Below, one piece after another: positions 3,254-61,000 of a stretch of 64,000 nt of DNA; within the stretch, counting starts at the first letter, position 1, and each line of letters begins with the position of its first letter. Source of the DNA: Heliopora coerulea (lineage: Eukaryota; Cnidaria; Anthozoa; Scleralcyonacea; Helioporidae); NCBI GenBank assembly GCA_030142905.1, contig JASJOG010000253.1:86001-150000 (forward strand), given 5' to 3'. The translations under genes were made by a program, and so were the position numbers. Below the pieces are notes generated by a model that saw nothing but the letters and a program-made list of their open reading frames with translations, did not search any database and had not been told where the DNA came from.

Positions 3254-3391
3254 TTATACCAAGTCGCTCTGGAGTTTCCCAAGGTCAATGTCTGCGTAGT
3301 TAGTTTCCTCGCGAGACCGGTCTCTCATCTTAGAACTGTCAGGTTGTAGATCAACCGGATCTAAACTTGCGTAAGTTACACTGGCTGGCTG
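3254..3391 (-). CDS. Receptor exon 7: C-terminal tail with ITIM
   Basis: The final coding exon starts at a tandem NAGNAG acceptor (TTTTCAGCAG) and ends at a TAA at 3254-3256. It encodes SVTYASLDPVDL and, 25 residues on, EETNYADIDLGKL, ending QSDLV. VTYASL matches the ITIM consensus (V/I/L/S-x-Y-x-x-L/V/I) and TNYADI is ITIM-like. ITIMs recruit SH2-domain phosphatases in known immune receptors. Phase 0 matches the donor of exon 6. Use of the first or second AG would include or omit one Gln without changing the frame. Confidence 0.87.
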   Translation of the reverse strand, partial: QPASVTYASLDPVDLQPDSSKMRDRSREETNYADIDLGKLQSDLV

Positions 3392-6300
3392 CTGAAAATC
3401 AAGAAATGAGATAAAGAGAAAGAGATTAGGACAGTTCTCGCTAGTCATTCCGACAACCTGCAATATCAAATCTAAAATAGTTACAAGGCTCAATGAATGA
3501 CAGGCAGTAAAAATAATAAACAGGAAGAATTGTGGTAGCTTGTAGCGTGTCACAATCCTGATTCGATGACAAGTACAGTCTAAATACTTGAGGAAACGCT
3601 TGGTCCAAACGCCAAAAACCGAGGAAAACTATGTGCTTTCTATTATCTCCATTATCACAACTATCAAATATTTCCTTTTTAAAATCACGCTCGCCTAACA
3701 AGCGTAAAAGGCTCAAGGCTTCTTACAAGCAAGCTATAGAGACGCATTTGATGTCACTTGTCAAGGACATGATTTGATTGTTGCAAGTTGTGTTCGAACA
3801 TTGCGTTATTAATGTTTCAATGGTTTACGTTTTGAGATTAAGAGGCTTTCTCTTATCAAAAGTTCAGGAGTTGAATTGCAAGAAGAAAGAATTTGAAATC
3901 GTCAAGAGATGATTAAACTAAAAACTATGATTACGTTATGATATTTTTGCGTTTTCACATTAAGATGTTGATCATAATGTTGAATGTTTTGATAATCAAC
4001 ACGACAGTTTTGATCGAAATCTTTATTTGCAACATGTTTCAGAATAAGCTTATTCCTTCATCAGGGAATTTAAAGTAGATTCGTAATATTAACAGTTAGA
4101 TTTAATTTAATGACGCTAAATTGGTTTGCGTAAGCTACAGCGTAATGTACGTTGTATTAACCAATACTGGAAAAGTCAACTAAAAAAACTGACCTGACTT
4201 TAGCGGTATCCGAACTCGCCTCTTGGCGTTATCAAATCGCTGCTCTACGAAATAATCATCGCGTCAACTAGAATTAATACTTTGGTAGAATGTAATTCAT
4301 GTGCACAAAAGGTCCTTGCGACAACTCAACGCATATTCGTAAGAATGTGCAATGTTTCGATCAAATCGCTGCTCCACGAATTAATTATCGCGTCAACTAG
4401 AATACTTTGATAGAATGTAATTTAAGTGCACAAAAGGTTCTTGGGACAATTCAACACATATTCGTAATGTGCAGGGTTTCGATTCTATTCTTGAATCATT
4501 CGGAGGGTAATATGTAGAAAAAATTTCAATTCGTCACCTATGGAGACTTAGAATGACTGTCCAAGTATAGGGAAAAATTACATCGTTAGAGGATTACCCG
4601 TTACATTCCACATTTTCCCGCCATTGTTTCATCACGGTTACAGTAGTCCACGTAGAGTAAAACGACTTACCGACTTTGGGGGAGGTTTTTTTGTTTTTTT
4701 ATTTTTGTCTACTACTGCGTAGACGGGTGGTAGGCCAGAGGGTGGCGGGCTCGTATCGCCACTAGGTCCAGCTTGCTGATTTGAATTTATCCTCTCACCA
4801 TCCACCGATTCGTAAGGGTTTTCAGTCCTTGAAGGTTGATCATAAGGACTTAAACCATCATTTACGACTTGGTCACTTTCTCTGCAGGATTATAGACAAC
4901 GAAAAGTTTTAACTTACAATGCAAAGAATACCAAAGTTATCATAAATAAGCCAGATGGGGTATTTTCCCTTATTTTCACTTACAAAGTAGTAACCAACTG
5001 TGCGCCGCCATGTTGGGCTATCTGAGGGACGCATAGAGATCTTACAAAACTAGAGGGGGCATTATCAGACAGAATGAATTTTGTCTGATAATGACTTTGC
5101 AATAAAGTCGAAATATTAGTCTCACTTTTGTCTTGCCCTAACTCGAATTCTGAGTTCACAAAATGCTATTTTTCGGAATCTGCTTTGTTTTATATTTCTT
5201 AAAGTTGTCGGCTGGTTGTGGTTTCCGGGGGAATTGTAGCATGCAGCTTTTACGAAATGTTAAGCTATGAAATCTGGTGATATAATTAAATAGCTAGAAC
5301 ATATTATGAAATTTTCAGCATTGGTTTTCAAGGGCCAATAGCATGGAATTCAATTGAAAACGATAAATCTTCTACATTGTCAATGTTTGAAGAAACATCT
5401 AAAAAATTCTTTCTTTGATCATTATTAGTATACTTGGTCCATGATTTCAAGATGGACTGTTAGATGTATTTTATTAATATCATAATTATAATATCTATCC
5501 GCTATAGGATCAAAATTAAGATATATGTAACTAACTGTTTGAATTTATGCTGATTGATATATTGAGATAAATTAGTTCATTTTTCTTTCAGTGTCCACTC
5601 ATTCTCCGACCAACATCAAATATATTGAATTTTCTTATTTCTTCAATTGGCCTCCAGGAATTTCTAGCTCCAGATATTTATTTATGGAAGCTAATATCCA
5701 ATCTATATTAATAATCTACAACTATATTAATACGTACAAATGTGAATAGGGATGTGAATAAAATGATTTTCTTCTAATCTAAGAAATTGGCATCACGTCA
5801 TAGTGTACTGCTCTCTTTGTACCTAGAGATGTATTTCTATAACGAGTGTTCATTCTCTTGTCCTAGGAAATTCTAACTTTGTCTAAACTATTTTACAAAT
5901 AGCATTATAAACAAATGCAGAAGTTGTACTCTTCTTTACCTCATGTGACCATAAAATATTTGAGTATATTTCTTGTATGCAACTCCTTGCAGATACCTAA
6001 CTGTGAAATTGTGATGCATTATTTTATCACTCCATGAATCAAACGTTTTACAACAGAATGAAACCAATTACTAAGTTTTGAATCAGATTTATCATAACTT
6101 AGCTCATCTATTTTCCTACACTTTCATCGGCCAAGACAAAGTGACCAAGTTTTCAACATATAACTCAAAAGCCGGCATGTAGAGTAATAATTTGCGATAT
6201 AATGCCAACTTTAACTACTCCAACATAGTTCATGAATTCGACATAGATGTCAACGTTAGAGCAGCAACGCCATTCCTTGACATTTTCCAAAAACTGCATG

Positions 6301-9300
6301 CTACAATTCCTACATCTACACCTCAACATCAGGGAGATATACTAGAAAATTTCATGCAATCCTCAGCGTTATTGCCTTGAGTGATCATGCGTTTCAGTGG
6401 CTTTCCTAAGAGCTATCAATCGAATCATTTCACCTACGTCAGTCTTCATAAACCTCCCAAATATCCACATTCATTGTTTCCATTGAACGAATTCGAAGTG
6501 CTTGAATACCTACGCCTTCGTTTTGACTTTTAACGTTGTGCTTTAAAATCCAGTTTTCCTCGGCAAAGTGCGTCACCTTAAGGTTTAACGAATTCGTGTT
6601 TCTCCTGCGTATTTGACGAAGACGTACTGCATTCATGCTGAGCATCCAACACGGGGGCGAATATATAACTGGGATAAAATTCGTATCGGAGTAGTTCTGA
6701 CTGTTATCATCCTCTAAGGTGGTAGTTGACATAATTATGTCTGTATGAATTTAAAAGGAATTTTGACCAATTTCAAGCTATTGGGAATCAGTCTTATTGC
6801 TCAAGTACGCCTATCCTCCTATGTTTTTAATTTGCTCGTCTTAACGTCGGTCCCTGGGTTGACGTCATGTCCAGCAATTAGTTACCAGTTTTTTCCCGGT
6901 CAGGTTTGAAATTGGCAAACTTTGGGATCAAAAATCAGCATAAAGATTAAATTTCGGTTGATTACAGTAGTAAGCAATTTTGTTCAGCGATGTCGAAAGT
7001 AGAGAAATATGTAATAAAAAAAAAAAATGATGGGATCGGTACTTTAATTGTTTTACATTCTTTTCAAAAAACAAAAACAAGAGACGAAAGTGAAGTTGCC
7101 ATTTACTATGACCTTGCACTTACCATCTGGGCATGTTTGTTGGGCCCCCAATTTATTAAATATGGCGGCAATCAATTTTCCCCCGCGGTTGGGTGACATT
7201 TAGCTGCAACGCCCCGTCTAGTTAATTTATGATCTCTATGGAGGGACGAACATTTGGCGCGTTTTCACCTAAAAGACTGGCAATAGTACGTTTCTCCACA
7301 AACTGACCGTAACGGCGTATTTGGCGGTGATTATGTTGACTGCGAGACTTTGAAACCAATCCTTTCTTTTTTCCGCTTATTATTTGTATGTAGAATACAA
7401 CATGTGATTTTCAGACTTAGTCTTCGAAATCGTTTCTCGCAACAACTCTAAACTTAAGGAAAGAACTTCTTAACCCAATAATCGCAGAAAATTTCTTATC
7501 TACACATTTTATATAAAAACGATTTATTTTTTTCTAATCAATGCCTGCCATCTGTCAGTCAACGCGTGAGATGTATTACGCAATAGTATGTTGTAGAATA
7601 CGAGTACACAAATGCGCGGTCAATAAGCCTATTTGCAATAACCTCAAACATCTGTTTGGAGTTTTGAAACTGCCAGTTAAAGTCATTCATCAAACTTTCT
7701 TCATCGACTAGGTATCATCATGATATTACTGTAATTCCACTAAAATATACAAACAACCGGTGGTTTTTGAACATGCAAAAATAAAACTGATGTAACTTGA
7801 AACGTAATCAAATAAAGCCTGATCAGATTAACAGATCGTGAGCTCTAACACTTAAAATGCTGCGTTATGTGGGCTTCAGATTTAGTACCTTTCTAAAGGA
7901 ATGTTTTGCAGACAAAGTATGTATTACTTTAACTGAATCGAGTAACGATTTTTTCTTTCAGTCTCAACAGTTCTTTCAATTACATTTTTATTACATTTAG
8001 TGATTGTTTCAAAACCTTAATAATAATAATTAATGAATTGCACTTTTTTGACTTAATCAGAAAGCAAAGAGAATTAAGTAACGCAGGACATGATTTTCGG
8101 AGAACCCGGAGATATTTAATGAGGAAGCACAGCATGAGTTAAAACGAAACACTTACCCCGTGCCTTCTTTTTCTAAAAGAACAAAAAAGACGTATTTTAG
8201 GCGATTGTATAATATCGGAAGAAAGGCAAAAGAAAGTAGAACTGATCTTTTACTTGAATTCATGACATTGAAGTGGGGCAAGGAATCCAACAGACAAAGG
8301 TTAAAAAATCGCTACAGTAAAGCCACGATAGCGCGCAAAAATAGGGTCTTTTACCCGAGAAAATAACGTTGCTAATACAAGCTGCGGCTAAAATAACCTG
8401 GGAATAGTGCAGTTGTACGTGCAATTTTGTGCCTCTGATTAGCCGCGGCTCATTTTGGTCGCGAAAAACTTCAATGTGGGGCCATGAATATGAAGGTCCA
8501 CGGCTTTATTTTTCTCTGGTACAAACGACCCTCCTAATGGCTCATTGCTGTGTTGTATTGTCCGATATCGTATGGAGGCTAGTTTTATAAGTTCAGGTAA
8601 GTGAGAGTGGAAATAGCTGTATTGAGTGGCTTTATGTTTAATTTAATAAAGTTGTTTTACTTACTGGTGCAACCGCAGATGCCCCGATCGTTTGGATTTT
8701 TAACGTAACACCAATAGATAACTGCAACTGCTACTATGACAGCAAGCAAAATCCCAATTACAATTCCAGCAATTGCGCCCGGTCCAAGAATTTTGTCAGA
8801 TTTAGTAGGAGGACGTGTTGTAACTAAACAAACAAACGTATCGCATGTAATGATCTGTAACAATTATCTAAACTATATTCAAACTAAGACAATGCAAATA
8901 AAAAAAAAGGATGAATGTGCATGCTGTCGACTGTTTCGCTTACTGACCAAGAGCCGGTATACGACGCACTAGAACATTTTGAGCGTGTAAAAACAGAAAG
9001 GACTATGGGATATATTGCCCAGAGCTATATGAATTCTAGATAGTGAAAAAAGACATATATGCATAACTTCTCTACTGTCCCTATAATTCCTGCAACTGAG
9101 ATACGGTCGTAACTAGTTCCCTTTGAGACCGCTGCTCAATTCCGGTTGGTGAAATTTTATAAAGCTTCTAACGATAAAAATAGATTACCGGTGTTATGTT
9201 TACAAAAATGAAGTATTATTAAAACTGTTAGCCATAAAATTCTTAAGAGAAGTGTTTGAAGGAGGAAGTGGAAGATCTTTAACATCGTCAAATAGGTTAA

Positions 9301-15300: not shown

Positions 15301-18300
15301 ATTTCGGTTGGTTCATAATTTCGACTAACAATGAAACCGCACGGGTTACAAGTATGCAATAATTATTCAGCGGCAAAGTTTGATGAAACTTTTCCGGGGT
15401 ACGGTTTGAAGTTTCTTCCTGAATTTACCTGGGGAGAACGATTCGTGCAGTGGGAATAGAAATAACTTTAGTAGAATATTTCAAACCAGAAAATATAGCT
15501 TTGGTATTTACTTTTACCTGCAATATTAGGGGAACTGCCAGAAGGAGTGTTCGACGTTGTTGTGGTCCTCTCACCTGTGATATTTAATGACAGCTCTTTC
15601 GACGAATTTCCGATGATATTACTCGCGATGCATTTGTATGTTCTAACACCATAATTGGTAACGATGGTTTCCTTGACCCCATTTTGGGAATCATCAAGAT
15701 AGGTTCCATTAAACATTATCCAATATGTAGTGGGAAGTGTTTCCTTGGCTTTGCAAGTAAGTGTGAAAGGTTCGTTGACAGCGACATCTTTATCAGCCGT
15801 AAAGGACATAATTTCTGGTTTCTCTGTTAGCAAATTAAGAGAGGAGTCAAAAATTACATAGAAATTCGCAAACAATTTAAATCATCAGATACTGAATGAA
15901 CGGAAATACAGACAGACTGAGGTGGAATAACGGACGGGAGGATAGACGGTAAGACACGAAAACAAATGGACGGAGAGAGGTGATGAGGGAGAAATGAACG
16001 GGGAGGGAGAGGTAGATAAAGAGTAGAAACAAGGAGTTGAGAAGAAAAGGCAGAAGGAGAGAGACAAAAAAAGAAAGGGAGATGATGGAGACAGACTGAG
16101 ACAAACACACTTGAGAGGAGCTGAAGGAAGTATGTGAGAAAGGATTACGGGAGGTGGGGGAAGTGGAAGAAAGGCAGCGACGGAGAGAACGAGGACGGAA
16201 AGTGGGAGGCACAAAGACAGCGAGGGATCAAGTAAGGTATAGGAGGGGTACTGGAAAGTAGCGTAACTGGTGGGGGGCAGGGGGGGCAACTTCCCCCCAA
16301 CAGAAAATTTCGTCGGAAAAATTGGCTCTATCGGGAATAACCAAAATGGTCATTTTGTATTTTACTAGCTAGGTTTTATAGAAGCTCTTTTCAACAAATT
16401 ATTTATATTGCTCACGGTCTCGGTATTCAAAGCAATATACCTTAATTATATTTTAAAGATTGAACTAAATCGAACTGCCTTTCGCCGATTTTATGAGCCA
16501 GACGGCTCAGCTGCGTGCTCTTTTTGTGCAAAGCAGAATGAAGCAATACGCTGTGTTGATTTGTTTACAATGCGCTAGTGATAGGTCTCACTTTTGGGAT
16601 CTGGAATACAAGACACGCCGCAATCGAGAGAGCTTTGGGAGTTTCACTTGATCAGCCTGTTTAATCGTTTAAGAAATCATCGATATGTCAACGTGTCCTG
16701 CGTTGTTTCGTTTTGCAGTGAAATTTTTGACGACTATCGCAATAAACGTAATTTGAAATATCATAAGGCCTTGGTCTTAAATCGTAAGGAAATTCCGTAT
16801 GAATTTCTTGGTGCACCTTCTAATCGTTTCGCAAGGTTAGATAATTCCAAGGATAATCTTAAACATGTTATAAAGTTTGTCGGAAAAATTAGGTTTTCGG
16901 CCCCCTCTGAAAAAAATAAAAACAAAAAAAAGAAAAAAAAAAACCGCCAGTTACGCCACTGGTACTGTAAAGGAAGCAGGGATGCGAAGTATAAGTGGAA
17001 GCAGAGTAGAAGGGTGCAAAAGAATTTCATTTTTCATACATGTATAAGCAAACTATTTTGTAATAATCAATGTTGTTTTAAAGCAAGTGAAAGCGATAGT
17101 CTGTCCAGCTATTTGTAAATTCGATGATAATCAATCCCGCACAACACAAAACAACACAACACAGAGCCAGTCCAAGTATGGTTCAATGATGAAGTTATCC
17201 TAATTACAGAAACTTCTGTTTTTCTCAATTTTGGTAAGCACTAAAGACAATACACTATTTGCCTCAGACAATTGACGACCATTCTTATCTGAAGTTTAGT
17301 CATCAAAACCCAACACATTTAGCTTCATCAACTCTAGAAAGTGAATGACAAATTAACAGAACCACCGCTTACTAACAGCCTCAATCTTGATCCAATTATT
17401 GTGAATTTGTATTTTTCAATATTCAATTTGAGTTTCTTCGCCAATAGTCAAGTAGAGGATGCATTTATTTCGTAGTAAAAGTATTCATTGGATAGTAACC
17501 AAAATGCGTAACAGTACTAAACTACATGTTGGTTTACTAACTGGGGAAACGCTCGTAAACTATCCGCTCAAGAAAGAAAAATTGCATGGGGGAATCCCCA
17601 CAGAATACTAACCTAATGTAATCCTGTATCTGTAATATTCCCTTCACTTTCCCACAGACATATTGCATATAGTGCTAACGTTTAAAACATGCATTGTTTT
17701 AGCACTGTTTAGATTGGGTCTTTTTTGCACTGTTGTGGCCGATGACGACCAAATAGATCTTCCATTGCCTTAACGACAATTTTTTTGCTGATGTACTTTT
17801 CCCACGAGATGAAGATTCCTTCGTTTTTGCATACGTAGATGACCTACTCTACCGTAGACATGAATGGAAACTCCTTTTAATAAGAATATTTATTAGATGT
17901 AACAAAGTAAGACCACCTCTCAAACCATCTAAATCGTCCATAGCAGAATTTCCTTTTACAAAATCAATTATGTTGGAAGAGAATCACACCCAGCTAAGAT
18001 TAAAGCAATTCCTTCATTCCCTAGCCCGAAGAAAACAACTGATATTCAGCAAATTCTAGGAAGACCTGGATACAACCGCCAACGTATCGTTTTTCGCATT
18101 AAGATCATGGCACCCAAGACAACTGAAGGTATCATCTAAATAGGGAACCAAAGATGAAGATCATTGTCAAGACCTAAAGTCTACCCTTCCCTGTGATTCC
18201 GTTATGTTACATCACACAAACAGGAACAACCCCTTCATGCTTCAAACTAATGCCAGTGCCACAGGACTTGGCGCAGCCCTTACACAAATTGTTAAAAGTG

Positions 18301-42300: not shown

Positions 42301-42655
42301 TAACCTTGCGATTTCCGGTAAGTAGTAACAAGTGTTCTTTCTCCCAGCCATGCTAAGATAAACCTGCGAAATTACAAATTTTGACCTCGAAAATCTCCAC
42401 GAAGATAAAACTTCTAAAAACAAGATATATTACATTCTTAATCAGATAACATCCAATGAATGTAAATATATAAAATCCCAACATACGGCACAGGCTTAAG
42501 AGCTTCATTGATAATAGCAGACATTCAGTAAATTATTTAAGGCACTTTTCTAAAAATATTTGTGTTGATCGATGACGAAAATCAAACGGTACATCAGTGG
42601 ATACTGAGAACATTCTGGAGAGAGGAGGTTTAACGTGTCAAATTTTAAAGACGTA

Positions 42656-42693
<38 letters not shown>

Positions 42694-45600: not shown

Positions 45601-48600
45601 GATTTAAAAAGCTTTCTGGTGGAGACTAATTTGAAACTCGTCAAATCCAAAGAATTGCTCAATTTGGCTGAACGAGAAGGCAATACTACCCCAGGTGAAG
45701 AAACAAATACTTCTCTCATCACTCGAGACTTTGAGAAACATGGTGACAACGTCCAATCAATAGCGGCTTTGTAAAAAGGATAGAATCTGTACTCAATCCA
45801 GACTATTACGAGTCTGGAAAGTTCTCGAATATTGACGTCATACGTTATAAATAATGTTGAGTCATAACATCTGCTTCCAGAATATTGACGCACCGTTGCT
45901 ATTAATAGCTATGAAACATTCTACATTTGTCTGCACCGGAAAAATTGAGCAATGAGAGACAATTCCAGTAACGATCACTGTGCAGATTTTTAAGATAACT
46001 TGATATATTTGGTATATTACGACAACGGATCGGCCTGATTTTTGACGAGTTTGTTCACACGTATTTGTACCACACGGCATAAACATAAACGAAACCATTT
46101 AGGGACAATTTTCGTCCCGACAAACTAGATTGCAAGAGGTCCCTACTATCTTAAAAAGACAAATATCACTCGGACCAGTAGTTTAAATTTTATCCTTTCC
46201 AAGGCAAATATGAAAGATTTGGCGTCAAAAAACGAAAGAGCATCAGCTGATTAAACAATTTAATTGACATTTCAAAAATATCGATTTTTTGAGTGGAGGA
46301 CCACCTTAATAACATATCACTGGAACAATTTATACGTCCTACGAAAGTCGTATGTCGTTTGAATCTTGGTAGCGAGACCGATTTTTAGGGGAAAAATGAA
46401 ATTTCCTGCATATACACTTTAAAGCATTCCTGGGAAGCGAGGTTGATGATTTCCATTTTCGTAGAAAAAAGTTTATAATACACGACATAGTAAAACTGTT
46501 CGAAAATTGTATTTTGATCATCCCATAATTTAATTTAATTGTTGACCTATGACTATTTAAACTTACGGCTTTATAATCCTATAACAGTTGCGTATTAAAT
46601 GCAATTAAATTTCGAGGATAATAGATTAATCGGAAGGCGATTTTTCTGGAGAGAGTGAACAAGGAGAGCGATATCTCTAGGTATATCGGCCTAGTGGGGC
46701 GTAATCACCGGCGGTTTCGCCCCAGGGAGGACGAAATAACTTGGGCCGATGTCTCTGACTCAAGATCCGGCACATTCTTAGTAAAATTAATCGGTTTCTT
46801 ACCTAATATGATGACCAGAATGTTAGACATTTGTTGGCCACCACCGGCACTGGTGCTCAAGGTTACTGTAAGGGAGTACGTTCCATTGTGACTAAGATTT
46901 GCATTTCGAAATACAAGTGTAGCTCCGTCTATGGTGTACGTTTGATCAAAAATATCTGGAACTGAGGCCCTACGAGTTTTCTCAGCCAAGTCTTTAGGTT
47001 GAATTGAACCAGATCTGGTAAACGACCATTGAGTAAGAGCAATATCTGACGATGTAATATTAATTTCCCATGGCAGTTTAACCGTTGAACCTGGGAGCCA
47101 ATATGTAGCATTACCATAAGGAAACGAGATCTGCGCTAAGAGAAAAAAAAAACATCAAAAAAAACCCAAGAAAAACAACAGAAACTTGGCATCTGAGCAG
47201 ATTTCCCACCTGATAGAAGAACGGAAGTCAAAATAACTTCATTCTTTACCAGTGATCCCAAGTATACTTTCCGACTGGCTATATGCAATAATTGTAGCCA
47301 GGCGCGTAGCCAGGAATTTTTCTTGGGGGGAGGGGGTGGTTTCAATGTCGAACAACTTTTGACGCTGGAAATTTTCAACATTTCAAAAGACGCACTGCCT
47401 TCTTGTACTCTAGTTTATCACATACGAGAGTTATCTGAGCGTCATGGTAATAGAGAGTTAGCCTAATGACCGTGCCTTTTAAAGCCCTTCGTTTGTGTAT
47501 TTCACTTCCGTTAACTGATTTTTTTTTTATTTATAAACTAAGACTGGAGTAGATGATGACTTCAAATTTTTCGCTTCACTCCAGCTACTTTTTGAACTAA
47601 GGTCAATTTTGAAGGTTCCAGGCTCCAGGTATTTTATTGCATTTCAAAAAGTAGGGTCTAATTTGGATTTTCCTGAATTAGACTTCAAAGATGGAGATTA
47701 ATTTCCGTACTTGGTATTCGGTATATTAATCGACAAAAAGTACGAAAATATGTGGCATAAAATGTTTGTGTAGTTTCAAAGTACCCAGTCTAGGACTAGT
47801 AAAACAGAATTAGGCGCATGAGCCTCCTGGGGACGTTGACGGGTATATGCAATCGACAGTAACGCCATCAAACACAACTAGAGAGAATATTTCGCTACAG
47901 AAAGAGAATGGCAATTTTGGTAACGCTTTCTCCTTAAAAACGTCATTAATAATGCTCAAATTGTGAGTAATATAGAGCAGCGGTCCCCAACCCCCGGGCC
48001 GCGGCTCGGTACGGGTCCGTGGGTCATTTGGTACCGGGCCGCACAGAAAGAATAAATAACTTATGTTATTTATTCTTTATTAACGTTATTCTTCATTAAC
48101 GTTATTTACGTTACAAAGACACTGCTAATAAAGTTGCATATGAGTACACAGTGGATTCACGTTTATTATTATATTTACAATATACCACAGTTTTTATGCC
48201 GTCGTATCATTTTATTTTGTTGTATTTATCCGCCACACCTTAAAGGCCGGTCCGTGAAAATATCGTCTAATATTAAACCAGTCCGTGGCGCAAAAAAGGT
48301 TGGGGACCGCTGATATAGAGCATAAAAGTACCACAATCGTTCGACACTAGAACGTAACCACTGAGACCAGGCAACCGTGTAGAGACTGGGACAGAACAAA
48401 AATTAGGAACTTTGTTTATCGGATAATTAATATCCAAGTCACACTGTGTCCAAGTTATCCCAACCGATTAAACAATAAAGAAGTTTCAGCGAGCGAACGA
48501 GAGACAAATTCATCTACCGAGTTTTATTTGAATAGTATTTTATCCTCTATGGTCACATTTGTGGACAAAATGGTCCTTTTTGTTCAATAAGTACTTGACC

Positions 48601-51396
48601 TCTTCGAACATGATATAAACATACGTGAACTGGCGGCAGATCTTATGCAATCTACAAGTCTGCAATATCCACTGACATTTAAATACTGAGCTTCAACATC
48701 TGTGAGGTTAAGCAGAATGTATTTGACTAGTTCAACATCCAGTATGGTCAGGCAGAGTGAGGTTAGGTGGGCAGAGTGTATTTAAATAGTTCAACATCCA
48801 CTAAGTTTAGCAAGAGTGCCTTTGGATAGTTCAACATCCACTGAGATTAGGCAGAGTACATTTAGACTGAATAGCTCTACATGCACTGACGTTAGGCAGT
48901 GTGTTAATTGCTAAACTAAATTATTTACTTTGCTGTGTCCTCTTCACTAATTACTGCCTGACCTCAATGAAAGTTAAGCTGCTATTTAAATAACTTGTGC
49001 CTGATCTCAGCCAACATTGAGCAAGTTAAATACACTTTGCCTTACCTCACTGGATACTAAAATATTTAAATATGCTTTGCCTAACCTCAGTGGATGTTGA
49101 ACCATTTAAATACACTCTGCCTATCCTCAGCCAATGTTTTATGATTTAAATACACTCTTGCTTAACCTCAGTTGATGTCAAACTATTCAAATACAACTAA
49201 CCTCAGTGAATGTTGAATTATTTAAATACTCCCTGCCTGACCTCAGTGGATGATGAACTATTAAAATACAATCTGCCTGACCTCAGTGGATGTTCAACTA
49301 GCTAAATATACAGTACCTAACGTCAGTGGATGTTGAACTATTAAAATACATTCTGCCTGACATCAGTGGATGATGAACTATTAAAATACGCTCTGCCTGC
49401 TCTTAGTGGATGTTGAACTACAGCAGTGTTCAAAAGTTTGGGAACCCATGAGCATAAACAGTGTTGTCAAGCTTGAGTTAATTAAAACGTGATTGAGTCA
49501 AGAAATAGTACAGCACAAAAACTGCAACTACCTGTCGACCTGTTCGGCTTGAGATTTTGCGTGGTCGGCCACTTCGGGGAACATTTTTGTTGTCTTAAAG
49601 TACCTCCATTTATAAACAACCTGACGCATGGTTAAAACATTAACGTCAGACCGCTGAACAATCTTCTTGTATCCCTCTCCGGCCTTATGAGCGATAATAA
49701 TCTTCTCTCTCAGCTTCTCTGACAGCTCCTTAGACCGTGGCATTTCAAATCTTGCGTGATGTCGATGCTGCACAGCGTGCTATATTAGTCGGATGAACAT
49801 CGGTGGTTATGTTGCTACTGATACGGTTCACTTACTTTTGCACCCTCAATTTTTTAAATTTTGACAATATTTTTCACTAATATGAATAGGGCTTCAAAAC
49901 GGTGCTATGGATAGAGATATATTTTTGAAATAGATACTTTTTTCTATCTATTTTTCATTGGAATCACAAATAGCTCGATTACATTTTTCATATTTCTTTT
50001 TAATCCCGGTGTTCACAAACCTTTGAGCACCACCGTAGTTAAATACGTTCTGCTTAACCTGACAGATGTTGAAGCTCAGTATTCAAATATCACTGGATAT
50101 TGCAGACTTGTAGATTGCATAAGACCTGTTGTCAGTTCACGTATGTTTAAATCACGTTTGAAGAGATCAAGTACTTATTGAACGAAAAGGACCATTTTGT
50201 CCGCAAATGTGACCATAGAGGATAAAATACTTTTCAAATAAAACTCGGTAGATGAATTTGTCTCTCGTACGCTCACTGAAACTTCTTTACTGCTTAATCG
50301 GTTGGGATAACTTGGACACAATGTGACTTCGATATCAATCATCCGATAAACAAAGTTTTAAACTTGCTCTGGTGCCGACCCACAATCGACTGGTTTTGGC
50401 GCTGACCATACTCAATGGCCAGCGAACGGTTTTGTCCGACAATCGACATTTGTCAGCGATTAACGTAATTTCAATATCTTGCTGACAAAGGACCAAACAA
50501 TCACATCCTCACGTAATCACTTCAGATAATACGTCTCGACAATTTATCACGACGTCAGACGAGTGGTTTAATACTGGCCAGATTGTGATACTGCCTTATG
50601 ACTCATTATGGAACTGGAAACTCAAGGTCGTTGCGTCTCGTGGGGGGTTTAACCCCACGAGACCCCCACTGGCTATGACACCGTTTGTCGCAACGTAATA
50701 TTTAGGATGCAGTAAGCACTTGCCGTATTTCTATCAAGTTTTAGTATAAATATACCATTCTATTTGACAAATCGAATTTCGTAGACTAAAAAGAACGCGA
50801 TTAACCCTTAAAGATAATCTTCTATCACAAATTGACCAACCAAACTGACAAAATGTATGATAAATTACATAATCCGTCTTCATTTTTCATGAGCGACATT
50901 CGACTAGGGCTTCACCCTTGATGACTATCCGTTCATGGAAAACTCAGGCTATAGTTGTCTAGTTATTACTTATAAACTCGAGTGGAGGTGGAAGGAAAGG
51001 AAAAATGGCTGGAGGAAAACGAACCGATAGGCATGTGCTAAAATCAGGACTACTGACTCCAAATGAGTGAAAAAAACCTCCAAATTTCACCACTTATTAG
51101 CCTGTAATTAAGTGGGAAGTACAATTTGTACGGTTGTCTCCGAAAGGAATTGTTTGGGTATCAATTCTAAATTTCGCAAATATTACGAATTTTGTAATGA
51201 TATATTCTCTACCGATGTACCGGGTCGCACGCTAATCAGGCATCACGGTTTATGCATACGTTACTTGCGCGGCGTCGTGCAATCTCCCATGCCTGACTGA
51301 ACATTTTTATAGAAAGTGAAGATCTTTACCTTCTAGATGAACTGGATATAAAACCAGTAATTGTAACACACCAAATATGCTAAAGGTTACAATCAT
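3254..51396 (-). CDS. IgSF type I transmembrane receptor with ITIM-like tail (seven-exon gene model)
   Basis: Exons run from high to low coordinate: 51396-51330, 47135-46803, 30566-30318, 15823-15575 (or -15518), 8823-8665, 4879-4671 and 3391-3254. Every border has AG/GT. Exon phases chain 1-1-1-1-1-0 and the summed coding length is 1404 nt, giving 467 residues plus stop. Domains are: signal peptide 1-22, V-set-like Ig 23-134, Ig 134-217, Ig 217-300, stalk 300-314, transmembrane helix about 315-340, cytoplasmic tail 341-467. Tail tyrosines sit in YDQP (365), YESV (375), YAVV (406), YASL (429) and YADI (454), with a lysine/proline-rich stretch near 411-421. This is the layout of a signalling cell-surface receptor: ligand recognition outside, phosphotyrosine/SH2 recruitment inside. 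Function is inferred; immune or allorecognition use is plausible by analogy with cnidarian IgSF receptors. Further exons in the 14-16 kb introns, or a small exon between the fifth and sixth, cannot be excluded. Confidence 0.82.
4229..4482. repeat. Two-copy tandem duplication of about 125 bp
   Basis: The segment starting ATCAAATCGCTGCTCTACGA is followed directly by a second copy starting ATCAAATCGCTGCTCCACGA. The copies share the runs ATCGCGTCAACTAGAA, TGTGCACAAAAGG and CATATTCGTAA with scattered differences. The duplication lies in the intron between receptor exons 6 and 7. Confidence 0.85.
4671..4879 (-). CDS. Receptor exon 6: cytoplasmic tail, tyrosine motifs
   Basis: The 209-nt exon is open and encodes SPYDQP, NPYESVDG, GLPPVYAVVDK and the lysine/proline run KKTKKPPPKS, followed by donor TCG|GTAAGT in phase 0. 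YDQP fits a YxxP SH2-ligand pattern; YESV and YAVV are YxxV. The proline run could bind SH3 domains. The acceptor region reads CTGCAGAG. Only the second AG (exon starting at 4879) joins exon 5 in phase; use of the first would run into a stop. An unseen small exon between exons 5 and 6 would be the alternative explanation. Confidence 0.82.
5072..5235 (+). repeat. PLE-associated tail sequence
   Basis: The run from AATAAAGTCGAAATAT to GCTATTTTTCGGAA recurs at 12913-13002, directly downstream of a PLE endonuclease, with the same order of short blocks. A further block (ATATTTCTT...TTGTCGGCTGGTT) recurs at 11341-11372. It is best read as a 3' tail of a PLE lying inside the 2.2-kb transposon. Confidence 0.45.
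6439..6732 (-). CDS. Unrecognised 97-codon ORF inside the 2.2-kb transposon
   Basis: The ATG-started frame begins MSTTTLEDDNSQ and ends WEVYED with a stop. It has no recognisable domain, no zinc-binding pattern and no transmembrane segment. It could be a degraded piece of the element's protein or chance. I do not assign a function. Confidence 0.15.
   Translation of the reverse strand: MSTTTLEDDNSQNYSDTNFIPVIYSPPCWMLSMNAVRLRQIRRRNTNSLNLKVTHFAEENWILKHNVKSQNEGVGIQALRIRSMETMNVDIWEVYED
7249..8656. other. Intron sequence, no feature recognised
   Basis: This AT-rich stretch lies downstream of receptor exon 5 in the transcript. The open frame at 8160-8366 lacks a recognisable domain. I see no RNA gene or repeat with clear boundaries. 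Confidence 0.4.
8665..8823 (-). CDS. Receptor exon 5: stalk and transmembrane helix
   Basis: The acceptor TTTGTTTAG|TT and donor ACCA|GTAAGT bound 159 nt, phase 1-1. The peptide starts with a Thr/Pro/Lys juxtamembrane stretch (TTRPPTKSDK). A helix of about 26 hydrophobic residues follows, beginning GAIAGIVIGILLAVIVAVAV, then the basic/polar stop-transfer KNPNDR. Glycines at positions 1, 5 and 9 of the helix make two overlapping GxxxG spacings, a known helix-helix packing motif. Cysteines at the inner face (WCYV and ICGC) are possible palmitoylation sites. The type I orientation follows from the upstream Ig domains. Confidence 0.88.
9150..9545 (-). mobile_element. Penelope-like element, endonuclease fragment (inverted copy)
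   Basis: The minus-strand translation reads GDVVYKIMCPGCNQ followed by SSLDRPLSEYSSVVKNSAVASHFLTWDS. This is the GIY-YIG endonuclease region of a PLE with the CPGC knuckle-like pair. It is the inverted counterpart of 12310-12660, where the same protein region reads on the plus strand. The two nucleotide stretches are recognisably homologous, for example GCGGGA and GTCTTA blocks in mirrored order. A PLE copy flanked by an inverted partial copy is typical for this class. Confidence 0.75.
9550..10486 (+). mobile_element. Penelope-like element, reverse transcriptase part (degenerate)
   Basis: Plus-strand frames carry PLE reverse-transcriptase motifs in order: FRPTIDTTNTPHCNAS, then SYDVESLFTNMPLNRTV, then FSFDNTIYEQFDRVSMDS and FCRRYVEETSCPTES. 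The last sits where the catalytic YVDD is expected, so two catalytic acidic positions have changed. Stops and frameshifts separate the blocks. The reading continues after an inserted element, at 12051. It is a dead copy lying antisense to the host receptor. Confidence 0.8.
10717..11271 (-). pseudogene. PLE GIY-YIG endonuclease domain (nested copy)
   Basis: The 184-codon open frame contains KSFVVYEFTSAGCNSRYIGE followed by TSHLFSTRIKEHTLTDRNTH, the core of a PLE GIY-YIG nuclease. The upstream part (LTQIKIRQLCKRSCEDLSIK) is the usual RT-to-endonuclease linker. The frame's N-terminal end is formed by a hairpin inversion at 11142-11353, not by a natural start. Upstream on the minus strand (11650-11380) the same linker and RT tail appear again, including DRTFKIYNTNAGLNKDHNQL and ENTNIQYLKLLYIGNYSRLT. 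Confidence 0.8.
11142..11353. repeat. Near-perfect ~100-bp inverted repeat (hairpin) inside a PLE
   Basis: The arms 11142-11241 and 11258-11353 mirror each other around a loop of about 16 nt centred near 11249. Shared runs include CAAGATTTGAGTAAAATCAA and CAATTATGGTATTTGC, with only a few mismatches. The inversion duplicates part of the PLE linker and breaks its reading frame. Confidence 0.88.
12051..12660 (+). mobile_element. Penelope-like element, endonuclease part (continuation)
   Basis: This resumes the element begun at 9550. It encodes SDVVYDITCPGRNRHSIGKT, then ERSLDKRLPEHSSIIKNSAV and ASHFLTYDSIKYLANLNNLF, a GIY-YIG nuclease followed by the usual C-terminal segment. The second Cys of CPGC is Arg here. 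A tail like that at 5072 follows at 12900-13030. Confidence 0.78.
13030..14830. other. Intron sequence, no feature recognised
   Basis: Open frames around 14161-14598 have no recognisable domain and are lysine/asparagine-rich as expected from A-rich DNA. No exon with Ig-type phase-1 borders was found on the minus strand here. Confidence 0.4.
14831..14935. repeat. A-rich low-complexity tract with a C-run
   Basis: Runs of AAAACA-type units enclose a run of about eleven C. The lysine-rich reading through it is a by-product of composition. Confidence 0.85.
15135..15250 (+). repeat. tRNA-derived SINE (partial)
   Basis: The sequence contains an intact B-box-like GGTTCGATCC within GCGGGTTCGATCCCCGTCCG, followed by GGGCTCAGAATCGTTTTCTG and GGCTTGACGATTATTCATC. 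The same module appears inverted at 24840-24935 and 25860-25992. The A-box region is disturbed. Shared flanking body across three copies marks it as a SINE family rather than a tRNA gene. Confidence 0.65.
15518..15823 (-). CDS. Receptor exon 4: Ig domain with alternative stalk extension
   Basis: The acceptor CTAACAG|AG opens an Ig domain of I-set/C2 type: FTLTCKAKE (B-strand Cys), YWIMFNG (Trp) and YGVRTYKCIASN (F-strand Cys). Two in-frame phase-1 donors follow. CACAG|GTGAGAGG ends the exon at 15575 (249 nt) and ATTGCAG|GTAAAAG ends it at 15518 (306 nt). The longer form adds 19 residues rich in Thr and Ser (about GERTTTTSNTPSGSSPNIA), a likely O-glycosylated stalk. Both forms join in frame to the transmembrane exon. 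Sequons NGT, NSS and NIT are present. Confidence 0.87.
15885..16246. repeat. Purine-rich (GA/GGA) low-complexity region
   Basis: The plus strand is dominated by GAGA, GGAG and AAGG runs for about 360 bp. Three overlapping minus-strand frames rich in Ser, Leu and Pro arise only from this composition. It lies in the intron just upstream of receptor exon 4. Confidence 0.75.
16257..16960. mobile_element. MITE-like element with inverted ends and ~10-bp target duplication
   Basis: The left end AGTAGCGTAACTGGTGG mirrors the right end, which reverse-complemented reads AGTGGCGTAACTGGCGG. GGTACTGGAA precedes the left end and GGTACTGTAA follows the right end (9 of 10 identical), indicating a target duplication of 9-10 bp as made by Mutator-type elements. 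An A-rich run precedes the right end. An open frame from about 16594 through the right end has no recognisable domain. Confidence 0.62.
17120..17755. other. Intron sequence, no feature recognised
   Basis: AT-rich sequence between the MITE-like element and the decayed Gypsy copy. I see no exon, RNA gene or bounded repeat. Confidence 0.4.
17760..19215 (+). mobile_element. Decayed Gypsy-type LTR retrotransposon (RT, RNase H, integrase remnants)
   Basis: In successive, frame-shifted stretches the plus strand encodes FAYVDDLLYR (RT catalytic YVDD), then PAKIKAIPSFPSPKKTTDIQ and QILGRPGYNRQRI (RT thumb/connection). These are followed by NPFMLQTNASATGLGAALTQ (RNase H; the catalytic Asp after QT is Asn) and PWETGIDLFGPFPET (integrase). 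SGTDGLTPFRLMYGKN (integrase C-terminal end) comes last. The order is that of Ty3/Gypsy pol. Many stops and indels show an old, dead copy. No LTRs were identified. Confidence 0.82.
19353..19790. mobile_element. Short relative of the 2.2-kb P-like transposon
   Basis: The left end CATAGAGACCATATAAAACT and the right end, reverse-complemented CATAGAGATCATATAAAAAC, form ~31-bp inverted repeats followed on both sides by CTAGAG and a GGGCAT-like block. The right 180 bp (19607-19790) match 7067-7240 of the larger element in order and orientation, including ACAAAAACAAGAGACGAAAG. The target duplication is imperfect (CCTCTAGC against CTTCTAAA). This is a non-autonomous deletion form. Confidence 0.72.
20700..20870 (+). 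mobile_element. LINE reverse-transcriptase fragment
   Basis: One frame reads ADDTQIATSSANVHDIVKTL followed by YDRANVSIRMVLNRISLNVT and KTDYNL. This is the catalytic ADD motif and downstream palm segment of a CR1/L2/Jockey-type non-LTR retrotransposon. Only about 55 codons remain. Confidence 0.72.
22151..22444 (+). CDS. Unrecognised 97-codon ORF within the inverted-arm element
   Basis: The frame contains LLNFDALNIYGFEGFFTDIN and ends FQTFNSFPAMNSNV. I recognise no domain, and the codon before the usual ATG cannot be judged. It is possibly part of an element-encoded protein, possibly chance. Confidence 0.12.
   Translation: MIDIMILDTLLNFDALNIYGFEGFFTDINPSDRILFVTISSPERLGSSHLDGSILEVLSNSEQFNRLFLKLQSDNLKKLSSLKFQTFNSFPAMNSNV
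23153..23350. repeat. Two-copy tandem repeat of about 110 bp
   Basis: AACCCATTAAGAGGCAAGGG at 23153 and AACCCAATAAGTGACAAGGA at 23268 start two related units. Each continues ACACTCT...ATTTTACT.TGGCTAA.GCCAG and GGATGAGCC. It lies inside the inverted-arm element. Confidence 0.75.
24840..24935 (-). repeat. tRNA-derived SINE fragment
   Basis: In minus orientation it carries GCGGGATCGATCCCCGTCTG and GGGGCTCAGAAATCGTTTTC followed by a GAGCTTGACTATCGTTCATC-like body. This is the same module as at 15135 and 25860. The 5' tRNA half is missing. Confidence 0.6.
25330..25520 (-). mobile_element. Penelope-like element, endonuclease fragment
   Basis: The minus strand encodes YKHKCPGCDVLYIGDTCRHL followed by NVRIADHVGVSAYTEST. 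The YKH...C-P-G-C...YIG...R core of the GIY-YIG nuclease is visible within about 60 residues; the rest is absent. Confidence 0.75.
25860..25992 (-). repeat. tRNA-derived SINE with both pol III boxes
   Basis: Read on the minus strand: an A-box-like TAGCTCAATGGTTAGAGCA near the 5' end, then a B-box GAGTTCGATCC within GCGAGTTCGATCCCCGTCTG. A body GGCTCAGAAATCGTTTTTCT and GAGCTTGACGAACGATAATC follows. The anticodon arm does not fold cleanly and the body is shared with two other copies in this window, so I call a SINE, not a tRNA gene. Confidence 0.72.
26196..26266 (+). repeat. tRNA-like SINE head, decayed
   Basis: GTTTGTAGCTCAGTTGGCAG matches a tRNA A-box region, and about 40 nt further GCGGGATTGTTTCGCAAC stands where GGTTCGAATC would be expected. 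The T arm is degenerate. It is probably an old SINE or tRNA pseudogene. Confidence 0.4.
26270..29230. other. Intron sequence, no gene recognised
   Basis: Several short open frames exist but none shows a known domain. The 20-base run GCAAAACCATTGGGGCGAGC at about 26700 recurs inverted at about 28110, pointing to an inverted dispersed repeat. No Ig-type exon was found. Confidence 0.4.
29470..29745. repeat. Polypurine microsatellite (GAAA/GGAA/GAAG)
   Basis: About 275 bp consist of GAAAG, GGAA and AAGAAAGG units ending in a GACAGACAGATAG stretch. Long frames over it on both strands (Lys/Arg/Glu-rich one way, Ser/Phe/Leu-rich the other) are artefacts. Confidence 0.92.
30318..30566 (-). CDS. Receptor exon 3: Ig-like domain
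   Basis: The exon lies between acceptor CTCTTTATAG|TT and donor TTTCG|GTAAGT, 249 nt, phase 1-1, open throughout. It encodes NITCSG (B-strand cysteine), ACWYSNSG (C-strand region, Trp with an adjacent extra Cys), LYIDNITRGESGTYMCKV (E strand, turn and F-strand cysteine). A CVC pair after the B strand plus the extra Cys before the Trp suggests an additional disulfide. Sequons NIT, NIT, NLT and NIT indicate dense glycosylation. It is exactly the same length as the short form of the next exon, consistent with domain duplication. Confidence 0.85.
30570..33470. other. Intron sequence, no gene recognised
   Basis: AT-rich sequence upstream of receptor exon 3. The stretch near 32385-32420 (CTCACGTTTCGATGGCAGGC, CTCTTCGTCAGAG) resembles the tails that accompany PLEs, but no PLE protein is readable beside it. 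Confidence 0.4.
33480..36030 (+). mobile_element. Degenerate LINE (CR1/Jockey-like) with endonuclease end, RT and 3' tail
   Basis: In order the plus strand encodes the end of an apurinic-type endonuclease (NALIDLIITSTPELFTSTGV, then NDQFPI for the usual SDHxP) and a linker (RSHPWINRDILFQMRKRDRA). RT motifs follow: NKATGNDNIPAAVLKIL, DSYRPIS, VAVFLDLYNAFDVIDH, TSGVPQKSVL and DAEDTEARYS, where YADD is expected and damaged. The C-terminal TNFDYLGVRIDNILSWEPQV and FKYAGAKDWNSLPNN close it. At least six frame changes separate the blocks. A 3' tail with AATAAAG ends near 36030. It is 5'-truncated. Confidence 0.87.
36498..36983 (-). pseudogene. HIRAN-domain-like protein carried by the pogo element (one in-frame stop)
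   Basis: From the ATG at 36983 the frame reads SWIRGYHVDKEYWRFKIDEV, LKHEHDNEQDKNAFAVIKEE and DVVGHIPRALAS. This is the W-x-R-G-x-H, N-x-x-D-x-x-A-x-x-V and V-G-H-x-P signature of a HIRAN domain, known from HLTF as a DNA 3'-end-binding module. A single TAA at 36711-36709 interrupts it. The same frame then continues open (VVGTAVNRGGGYGMEIPCIY) to a stop at 36500-36498, ending in a Lys/Arg-rich stretch. About 161 codons in all. It lies antisense to the transposase, inside the inverted ends. HIRAN identity is from motif memory. Confidence 0.68.
37191..38707 (+). pseudogene. pogo/Tigger transposase, frameshifted
   Basis: The ATG at 37191 opens a 147-codon frame with a psq-type helix-turn-helix (NPTASARKIAEHFNCGKTQI) and a CENP-B-type second HTH (EKFKASNGWLDRFKKRCGIK). 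The DDE core follows in shifted frames: WNMDEIGQFFRALPNKSL (Asp at 37715), then LMFMDNAPC (Asp at 38037) and LQPLDLGIIQAFK (Asp at 38136). The second-to-third spacing is DD32D. Four frameshifts are visible (near 37622, 37670, 37800 and 38330). An acidic C-terminal region ends at 38707. All three catalytic aspartates survive, but the reading frame does not. Confidence 0.9.
40490..42495. repeat. Large inverted repeat (arms of about 580-600 bp) around a PLE fragment
   Basis: The arm 40490-41068 returns reverse-complemented at 41885-42495. Shared blocks include GGATTTTATATATT, CTTAGCATGG, GGGAGAAA, TTACCGGAAAT, CTTCGGAGTCGGTTAGAA and GAAACAGTGGATAACTG. The arms differ by point changes and short indels. 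Both still read parts of one protein with LRSRLE-SETVDN near its end, so a coding element was duplicated head-to-head. Spacer 41080-41880 holds a PLE piece. Confidence 0.78.
41330..41660 (-). mobile_element. Penelope-like element, endonuclease fragment
   Basis: The minus strand encodes, across frame changes, YSFTCQVCTELCVGQTTRHL and HARVSYPSGISVCPGK. This corresponds to the GIY-YIG core of a PLE (C-x-x-C, then G-x-T-x-R-H-x-x-x-R). It sits in the spacer of the large inverted repeat. The tail near 41150 (CAACGTTTCTTGGCGTGATG, ACATCATCAGAG) is PLE-like. Confidence 0.65.
42658..42690. repeat. (TA)n microsatellite
   Basis: About fifteen uninterrupted TA units. Confidence 0.95.
43470..44030 (+). 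mobile_element. LINE 3'-terminal coding fragment
   Basis: The plus strand reads YDFNIQSDREIKVRGPDIVL, CFVIDIAIPW and RRELRRLRGVRGHVIPIING. This is the C-terminal part of a non-LTR retrotransposon protein in which a D-x-x-I-x-x-R-x-P-D-I-V block and an I-D-I-A-x-P block precede a VIP-x-I-x-G-A motif. Two frame changes occur. The remainder to 44027 is open but divergent. Confidence 0.65.
44270..44840. repeat. Short tandem units CGAAAGTAGCGGT, probable transposon end remnants
   Basis: From 44287 to 44450 a unit close to CCCTGAAAGTAGCGGTCT repeats about eight times with variation. One more forward copy stands at 44764, and a mirrored form ends near 44822. Arrays of this kind within both ends are seen in the pogo element at 36173, so this may be a decayed relative without its transposase. 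Confidence 0.5.
44845..46700. other. Intron sequence, no gene recognised
   Basis: Frames such as 45565-45774 (IEKKFNDLKSFLVETNLKLV) look helical but belong to no family I recognise. No bounded repeat seen. Confidence 0.35.
46803..47135 (-). CDS. Receptor exon 2: V-set-like Ig domain without cysteines
   Basis: The acceptor TTTCTCTTAG|CG and donor TTAG|GTAAG bound 333 nt, phase 1 at both ends, with no stop. The translation has an Ig V-like pattern. A B-strand-like STVKLPWEI is followed by a C-strand Trp (LTQWSF), and the E-F segment LVFRNANLSHNGTYSLTV has the usual N/D-x-G-x-Y turn. There is not one cysteine in the exon: the B-strand cysteine position holds Trp and the F-strand one Leu. Four N-glycosylation sequons are visible (NAT, NIT, NLS, NGT). 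As the membrane-distal domain it is the likely ligand-binding face. The Ig fold call is from motif reading. Confidence 0.8.
47978..48312. mobile_element. hAT-type MITE with perfect 8-bp target duplication
   Basis: The 335-bp element starts CAGCGGTCCCCAACCCCCGG and ends with the complement GGTTGGGGACCGCTG. ATATAGAG flanks both ends (47970-47977, 48313-48320). A CAG...CTG terminus with an 8-bp duplication is diagnostic of hAT. GGGCCGCGGCTCGG near the left end and GGCCGGTCCGTG near the right give a second inverted block. There is no coding sequence. It lies in receptor intron 1. Confidence 0.93.
49421..50035. mobile_element. Internally deleted Tc1/mariner element
   Basis: TA flanks both ends (49419-49420 and 50036-50037). 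The left end CAGCAGTGTTCAAAAGTTTG mirrors the right end, whose complement is CGGTGGTGCTCAAAGGTTTG. Only the N-terminal part of the transposase remains, so the 615-bp copy cannot move by itself. It inserted into the foldback element at the edge of its right arm. Confidence 0.9.
49528..49743 (-). pseudogene. Tc1-type transposase N-terminal DNA-binding domain
   Basis: From the ATG at 49743 the frame reads MPRSKELSEKLREKIIIAHK, AGEGYKKIVQRSDVNVLTMR and QVVYKWRYFKTT. This is the first helix-turn-helix of a Tc1 transposase including the typical V-Y-K-W end. After AKSQAEQVDR the frame stops. The second HTH is only partly present and the catalytic DDE domain has been deleted. Confidence 0.85.
50380..51325. 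other. Intron sequence with a dispersed repeat
   Basis: The stretch 50520-50620 resembles 2040-2160. The rest has no recognisable gene. The open frame at 51112-51300 lacks domains. Confidence 0.35.
51330..51396 (-). CDS. Receptor exon 1: signal peptide
   Basis: The ATG at 51396 opens 22 codons starting MIVTFSIFGVLQLLVLYP, a short hydrophobic leader with small polar residues after it. The exon ends at a good donor (GAAG|GTAAAG) in phase 1, matching the phase-1 acceptor of the next recognised exon. The split codon becomes GCG (Ala), giving a plausible cleavage region before AQISF. An A sits at -3 relative to the ATG. About 28 nt upstream, a pyrimidine stretch ending TTTTACAG could be the acceptor of a 5'UTR intron. 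I chose this start because it is the only hydrophobic leader with a phase-1 donor that I found upstream of the Ig exons. Confidence 0.7.
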
Positions 51397-55929: not shown

Positions 55930-56045
55930 GAGACCCTATAGTCTAGTGGTAAAACAACCGTACCGGCAATCGGGAGACACGGGTTCGATTCCCGTTGGGG
56001 AACTCAGAAATTTTCTGAGATAAAGCTTGAGAACAAACTTTCCAT
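55930..56045 (+). repeat. tRNA-derived SINE, copy 2 (plus)
   Basis: Near-identical to copy 1 but on the opposite strand: AGTCTAGTGGTAAAACAACC, then CGGGTTCGATTCCCGTTGGG and CTCAGAAATTTTCTGAGATA. The downstream ATATATCCAAGCTTAC and ACATCTACACTTAGTAAGAT follow both copies in the same orientation, although the SINE bodies are inverted relative to each other. This suggests inversion of one body by recombination. Confidence 0.72.
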
Positions 56046-60865: not shown

Positions 60866-60996
60866 TGTAATATCTTCATGTTTACGCTCAGACCTCCAGA
60901 CAACAACAACTGACTTCAATAATCGTGCTGAGTAGAATACAATCAATTATGCTAATATTGCGTGCCTAATTTGCATGCTAAGTAACATATATTACA
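60866..60996 (-). repeat. Candidate 3' LTR of the Gypsy element (131 bp)
   Basis: Read on the minus strand it starts TGTAATAT and ends ATATTACA, a perfect 8-bp inverted terminal repeat with the TG...CA rule. It directly follows a purine tract (AAAGGGGAGT, 61006-60997), the expected plus-strand primer site. The 5' LTR would lie outside the window, so identity of the two LTRs cannot be checked. 131 bp is short for Gypsy. Confidence 0.6.
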
Positions 60997-61000
60997 ACTC

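Follow-up and report, generated by a model that had tools for sequence, protein, structure and literature searches.

A predicted family of immunoglobulin-superfamily receptors with a fast-diverging V-set-like domain and a conserved ITIM-type tail, probably from an anthozoan

Among the described receptors closest to the gene reported here, vertebrate CEACAM1 has a V-type N domain without cysteines, followed by further immunoglobulin (Ig) domains, a transmembrane (TM) helix and a tail with an ITIM, a cytoplasmic motif of the consensus [IVLS]xYxx[ILV]. Domain 1 of CD2 is also a V-type Ig domain without a disulfide. For the hydrozoan Hydractinia, Alr is described as forming clusters in which V-set/I-set genes, with pseudogenes among them, number in the tens; they are polymorphic and believed to act homophilically. 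Which receptors distinguish self from non-self in corals is still an open question as far as the literature searched shows, and no paper on ITIM-tailed families of the immunoglobulin superfamily (IgSF) in Anthozoa was found in open-licence PMC text.

The focal gene lies within the window, the whole stretch of 64,000 nucleotides that was analysed (C172:86001-150000), and runs on its minus strand from 51396 to 3254, over about 48 kb. Its product shares with CEACAM1 a Cys-less V-type N domain, further Ig domains, a TM helix and an ITIM-type tail, although the two are phylogenetically distant and the layout may be convergent. A protein search with 7702 candidates returned only two whitefish CEACAM-like proteins at E<=0.001 (1.3e-7 and 2.2e-7), in partial alignments that are best in Ig2-Ig3, and no Alr protein was among the matches at this threshold; a MAFFT alignment with fish CEACAM proteins placed the focal Ig1 on their last Ig domain. 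The layout of the family fits that of Alr, and the Alr clustering can be set against at least five Ig1 loci on contig C172 and at least 18 more on 15 other contigs. CD2 is found weakly by a profile of 13 Ig1 domains (E 0.14, non-significant), the best-scoring match being otk, which aligns along a short stretch (E 0.0034), and the tail of CD2 is unlike the focal one. By sequence, the best solved-structure matches belong to the contactin/Robo/DSCAM group (contactin-2, E 4.2e-9), from which the focal protein differs in its three-Ig ectodomain, in the absence of any FnIII domain reported by Pfam, in its ITIM-type tail and in its fast Ig1. Hydrozoan Alr and vertebrate CEACAM1 are the best analogues, and the focal receptor probably works like such receptors.

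In our judgement, the gene is likely to belong to a family of single-pass IgSF surface receptors that is large, actively duplicating and probably anthozoan, and in which a diversifying V-set domain is coupled to a near-invariant ITIM/ITSM tail. Such a family would provide an example from outside vertebrates in which a receptor combines a Cys-less V domain with an ITIM tail.

Gene model and paralogues

In the model we prefer, eight exons encode 492 residues (product P0001); when the gene is rebuilt from the sequence, AG/GT borders are found at every exon.

51330..51396, minus strand: exon 1, start codon and signal peptide MIVTFSIFGVLQLLVLYPVHLE(A), the signal by reading; donor in phase 1
46803..47135, minus strand: exon 2, Ig1, V-set-like, Cys-free and accelerated
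30318..30566, minus strand: exon 3, Ig2, with cysteines; found elsewhere in the genome as intact copies that share its borders
15518..15823, minus strand: exon 4, Ig3 and a Thr/Ser-rich stalk; a second donor is possible after 15575
8665..8823, minus strand: exon 5, stalk and TM helix GAIAGIVIGILLAVIVAVAVIYWCY, the helix by reading
8157..8172, minus strand: exon 6, 16-nt micro-exon, KKEGTG; counterparts in L023 (C291) and L024 (C191)
4671..4881, minus strand: exon 7, tail 1, with SPYDQP, NPYESV and PVYAVV
3254..3391, minus strand: exon 8, tail 2, with VTYASL (ITIM-type), TNYADI (ITSM-type) and the stop

An earlier, sequence-only reading had proposed a complete gene of seven exons. All seven exist within the limits it gave, on the minus strand and with AG/GT borders, and its 467-residue product was reproduced exactly; this product needs a tail-1 exon that starts from 4879 and the earlier Ig3 donor, after 15575. 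What that reading missed is the micro-exon (8172-8157), which a scan found between the TM and tail-1 exons and which adds K-K-E-G-T-G, and its tail-1 acceptor was two bases off (4879 instead of 4881); with the micro-exon included, the canonical acceptor, with the exon from 4881, fits in phase. A near-identical 16-nt exon stands at the same place in two of the three paralogues for which both neighbouring exons were fetched (C291/L023 and C191/L024), and none was found in C547 (L027) by a regex scan between the neighbouring exons. For Ig3, either of the two possible donors (15575 and 15518) may be used, because the at least 87 genome matches listed hold no Ig3 paralogue besides the one Ig3 row itself. 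Exon 1 has counterparts in five other loci (78-96% identity), and a candidate 5' UTR acceptor, CCTTTTACAG, ends 28 bases upstream of it (by reading).

Searched against whole P0001, the Pfam models Ig_2 (47.6 bits), Ig_3 (44.5), I-set (36.7), ig (36.4) and V-set (28.8) all score above their curated cut-offs, whereas the Ig1 exon alone reaches 23.5 bits with V-set against a cut-off of 26. The domain order first read from the letters, a signal peptide, three Ig domains, a TM helix and an ITIM-type tail, is thus borne out by Pfam for the Ig domains and by paralogues for the signal, Ig1, TM and tails. Five tail tyrosine motifs had been called ITIM-like; all five exist, and by the consensus only VTYASL is taken to be an ITIM, while TNYADI fits the ITSM form and the other three fit neither. 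VTYASL is found in the focal gene, C118 and C291, and appears as VTYANL in C191; TNYADI is present in all four. NPYE and PVYAVV are kept in five of five genes and the first tail tyrosine in four of five. A protein search with the tail alone gave one match, at E 9.1.

The family was searched in the gene's own genome (429.8 Mb, 769 contigs, E<=0.001), where 87 of 360 candidates were scored, so that all counts are lower bounds. Sorted by query range, the at least 87 matches listed comprise 54 to Ig1, 19 to Ig2, 11 to tail 1 and one each to TM, Ig3 and tail 2. The Ig1 rows represent at least 23 loci on at least 16 contigs, namely the focal gene, four more on C172 and 18 on 15 other contigs, two of the 18 being tandem arrays (C337 with 24 rows and C766 with nine). 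The C172 loci, at least five in number, share one strand and span about 285 kb. One Ig1 exon was extracted from each of 22 of the 23 loci (C9, whose match is in pieces, was omitted); C369b and C191b, which have no exon end, were dropped to leave 20, and C337, C547 and C327, which carry stops, were excluded from selection counts to leave 17. The AG acceptor is kept in all 22, and the G|GTAAG donor, phase 1 to 1, in 19 of the 20 with an end, the exception being the pseudogene C327, with A before GT. Since five of the 22 have a stop or lack an exon end, part of the family is dead.

The borders and phases of the Ig1, TM, tail-1 and tail-2 exons recur in paralogues. At C191, exon 1 (164386), Ig1 (162290), TM (155288), the micro-exon, tail 1 (153246) and tail 2 (145571) follow each other on one strand within 19 kb; Ig1 and tail exons therefore form one gene there, as far as DNA can show. 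Tail 2 is present in all three of the tail-1 loci for which a further 4 kb was fetched, at 98% identity to the focal gene in C118 and C291 and 86% in C191. The paralogues thereby confirm the predicted splice sites, phases, order, micro-exon and both tail exons. A chance assembly of unrelated open frames, the concern behind the earlier argument that the structure lies beyond chance, is ruled out because the signal, Ig1, TM, micro-exon and tail exons retain borders, phases and order in paralogues. The focal gene is real, and its product is a predicted IgSF receptor with a signal peptide, three Ig domains, a TM helix and an ITIM-type tail.

The earlier claim that Ig and tail exons belong to one gene stands, at C191, for Ig1 through the tails; the joining of Ig1 to Ig2 and Ig3 is the part left unconfirmed, with no recognisable Ig2 or Ig3 in C191. 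This locus gives some weight to an alternative in which Ig2 and/or Ig3 come from a different transcript and the focal gene is really signal-Ig1-TM-tail, as C191 looks. The four fetched close relatives of the focal Ig2 (69-92% identical) also sit on contigs without a listed Ig1, and the Ig2 matches near Ig1 loci are only 36-39% identical to it. Against this stand the presence of such matches within the same 10 kb in eight Ig1 loci on five contigs and the integrity of the close copies, which keep reading frame and AG/GT in four of four fetched, with a dN/dS of 0.26-0.56 over ten pairs. We consider separate transcripts unlikely and retain the eight-exon model. As the exon phases are 1-1, forms with and without Ig2/Ig3 would both be in frame.

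Divergence of Ig1 and of the control exons

Nei-Gojobori estimates for Ig1 over 17 genes (136 pairs) gave a median dN/dS of 0.91, with dN above dS in 46 of the 136. The exon diverges more than the unfiltered 300-bp upstream flank in 103 of these pairs and more than the downstream flank in 88. Among ten genes chosen for alignable flanks, 44 of the 45 pairs, all but C766-C526, have an exon more diverged than both of its 300-bp flanks; the exon also exceeds both 600-bp flanks in 44 of 45 when 50-base bins more than 35% different are removed from exon and flanks alike, the filtered medians being 0.213 for the exon and 0.107 and 0.112 for the flanks. With unfiltered flanks, the exon exceeds both in only 20 of 45 pairs at 600 bp and in 22 of 36 at 500 bp without the focal gene; the unfiltered count is low because the flanks of C172_255k, C191a and the focal gene lose homology at some distance, as a table of bins indicates. 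Where the flanks are homologous, Ig1 divergence in these alignments is about twice that of the flanking introns.

Synonymous sites of Ig1 are raised too, and dN/dS is near 1 and not clearly above it, so part of the pattern may be intron homogenisation. A recombination signal was obtained for the whole region (p=0.002, nine genes), and none within the Ig1 exon (p=0.84, 13 genes). Four pairs are nearly identical and represent either alleles or recent duplicates; Ig1 is more diverged than its block in three of them (p 0.0009, 0.073 and 0.088) and less so in the fourth (p 0.91).

Changes in Ig1 are unevenly placed. A fixed framework runs through 13 genes (AQI.F, GS.VKL, S.I, W, SGS, P.I.D, TL..NA, G.Y.L, VIIL), and the variable residues of the same genes cluster at 4-11, 33-38, 45-59, 68, 80-83, 90-95 and 100-103, presumably on the C, C'-C'', F-G side of the domain. 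All 13 genes have Leu at the two canonical Cys sites, which were located by motif, and Pfam V-set matches ten of the 13 at E<=0.01; single-sequence prediction did not yield a fold for Ig1 (pLDDT 40.5). These data also bear on an ordinary neural or epithelial adhesion family, of contactin, Robo, DSCAM or CEACAM type, in which Ig1 would be under relaxed constraint. The median dN/dS is compatible with relaxation, and the closest solved structures by sequence, contactin-2, contactin-1 and Robo1, match the Ig2-Ig3 part. A relaxed exon, however, would be expected to keep roughly to the pace of the introns, whereas Ig1 diverges about twice as fast as homologous flanks; in addition, 13 genes agree at 33 of the 110 Ig1 positions, with splice sites kept. 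An adhesion family therefore seems to us an improbable explanation.

The Ig2 and tail exons behave differently from the fast Ig1. Ig2 diverges less than both its flanks in nine of ten pairs, six of the nine having barely alignable flanks, and in three of the four pairs with homologous flanks (the exception is L042-L043), so that this control rests on four informative pairs. Tail 1 has a dN/dS of 0.17-0.44 (ten pairs, five genes) and lies below both flanks in eight of ten pairs. For tail 2, amino-acid versus silent changes are 1/10, 1/12 and 0/7 in pairs among the focal gene, C118 and C291, and the copy in C191 is more diverged (dN 0.066-0.076). The TM exon has a dN/dS of 0.47-0.72 and, like Ig1, exceeds both flanks in some pairs (slightly, in two of six), which tells against the contrast. 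At the level of these comparisons, a fast Ig1 beside conserved Ig2 and tail exons is the pattern that marks a recognition receptor whose ectodomain diversifies while its inhibitory-type tail is held under constraint.

Possible recognition function

As a diversifying receptor of this kind, the protein would bind its ligand at cell contact through the outermost, disulfide-free V-set domain, which would be the ligand-binding, diversifying part, with a fixed framework and clustered positions that vary from gene to gene; Ig2 and Ig3 would serve as a spacer. The tail tyrosines of VTYASL and TNYADI may then become phosphorylated and dock an SH2 protein, by analogy an SHP-type phosphatase, whose recruitment could damp or tune a response. 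Candidate ligands are a receptor of the same type, another family member or a microbe, and cell-cell recognition is the option we favour.

A more specific possibility, which we put forward tentatively and would not expect to be the case on present evidence, is an allorecognition (histocompatibility) family of an anthozoan, perhaps an octocoral, with homophilic, allele-diverse Cys-less V domains, ITIM/ITSM tails and the C172 cluster as its core. The many copies and the presence of some pseudogenes also resemble the birth and death of immune receptors, and Ig1 divergence with a frozen tail fits equally well with recognition of pathogens or symbionts, in which the diversified V domain would bind microbial ligands and the tail would tune the response, as in vertebrate paired receptors. 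Nothing in the analysis points to a microbial ligand, however, and we regard this role as possible but rather doubtful. For the study of self/non-self recognition in corals, the members of the family make up a definite set of candidates that could be put to crosses, grafts and binding assays.

Repeated copies and mobile elements

Several Ig1 copies are arranged in repeats. At L009/L010 (G000:C337:89542-98181), a stop-bearing Ig1 exon has turned into a satellite of 24 copies with a 360 bp period, 23 of them more than 99% identical to the reference unit and the first 96%. At L011/L012 (G000:C766:726089-738727), eight cut-off copies and one complete copy follow each other with a 1528-1529-bp period downstream of a signal exon and are 99.4-100% identical over 340 bp. 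A Dscam-like array of complete alternative exons was considered and rejected, since eight of the nine C766 copies are cut off before the donor and the 24 rows of C337 each contain one TGA. In the C172 paralogues (L013-L016), the full Ig1 exon is preceded at a distance of about 0.6 kb by a partial Ig1 copy that covers residues 1-46 or 10-46, and two of these loci have a further partial copy about 1.5 kb upstream of the full exon.

The Ig2 exon (30318-30566; L040-L043) has at least 18 other copies among the matches listed, 16 of them on contigs without a listed Ig1. C403 and C107 share a 4.1-kb block around Ig2 that is 95% identical and ends on one side in what reads as a reverse-transcriptase-like frame. 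A comparison of C107 with C74 puts the start of this block elsewhere, and we saw no clear terminal repeat in it; segmental duplication therefore fits as well as transposon cargo, and Ig2 has perhaps spread by one or the other.

The description of the introns as filled with transposons holds for intron 1, which contains the following features.

47979..50380, no strand assigned: intron 1 insert of about 2.4 kb, absent from six of seven fetched loci matching on both sides
49528-49779, minus strand: Sleeping-Beauty-type transposase HTH (PF25787, Pfam), within the insert

In the six loci without the insert (L009, L011, L019, L020, L021 and L025), matches to the focal gene end at 47977-47978 and restart at 50381, only 11-12 bases apart in the relatives, and the focal gene therefore has about 2.4 kb extra; in L036, the seventh, the match jumps from 47195 to 50390. 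For about 2.1 kb upstream of 50381, the focal gene can be aligned with L019, L020, L021 and L025, at 81-83%.

Elsewhere in the window, a HIRAN-domain protein fragment lies at 36498-37031 (minus strand; PF08797 in 36711-37031), its frame resuming after an in-frame stop, and Pfam reports Tc5-type HTH and DDE_1 transposase pieces at 37188-38357 (plus strand), a GIY-YIG fragment, which we take to be Penelope-like, at 56496-57101 (plus strand) and a gypsy-type integrase fragment at 60992-62059 (minus strand). Among the best 120 of 1144 matches to the integrase piece (60995-62059, minus strand), the closest with a species name is from the octocoral Paramuricea clavata (69% over 56% of the query); another protein of this species matches at 45% over 89%, other named animals reach 40-47%, and matches without a species name reach 92, 80, 74, 72, 70 and 66%. 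This similarity of one retroelement places the host weakly among the octocorals, since such elements can pass from one species to another. Finally, tRNA-like matches occur at 25912-25984 (minus strand) and 55934-56000 (plus strand); the first stretch recurs three times in L041 and is thus perhaps a tRNA-derived SINE.
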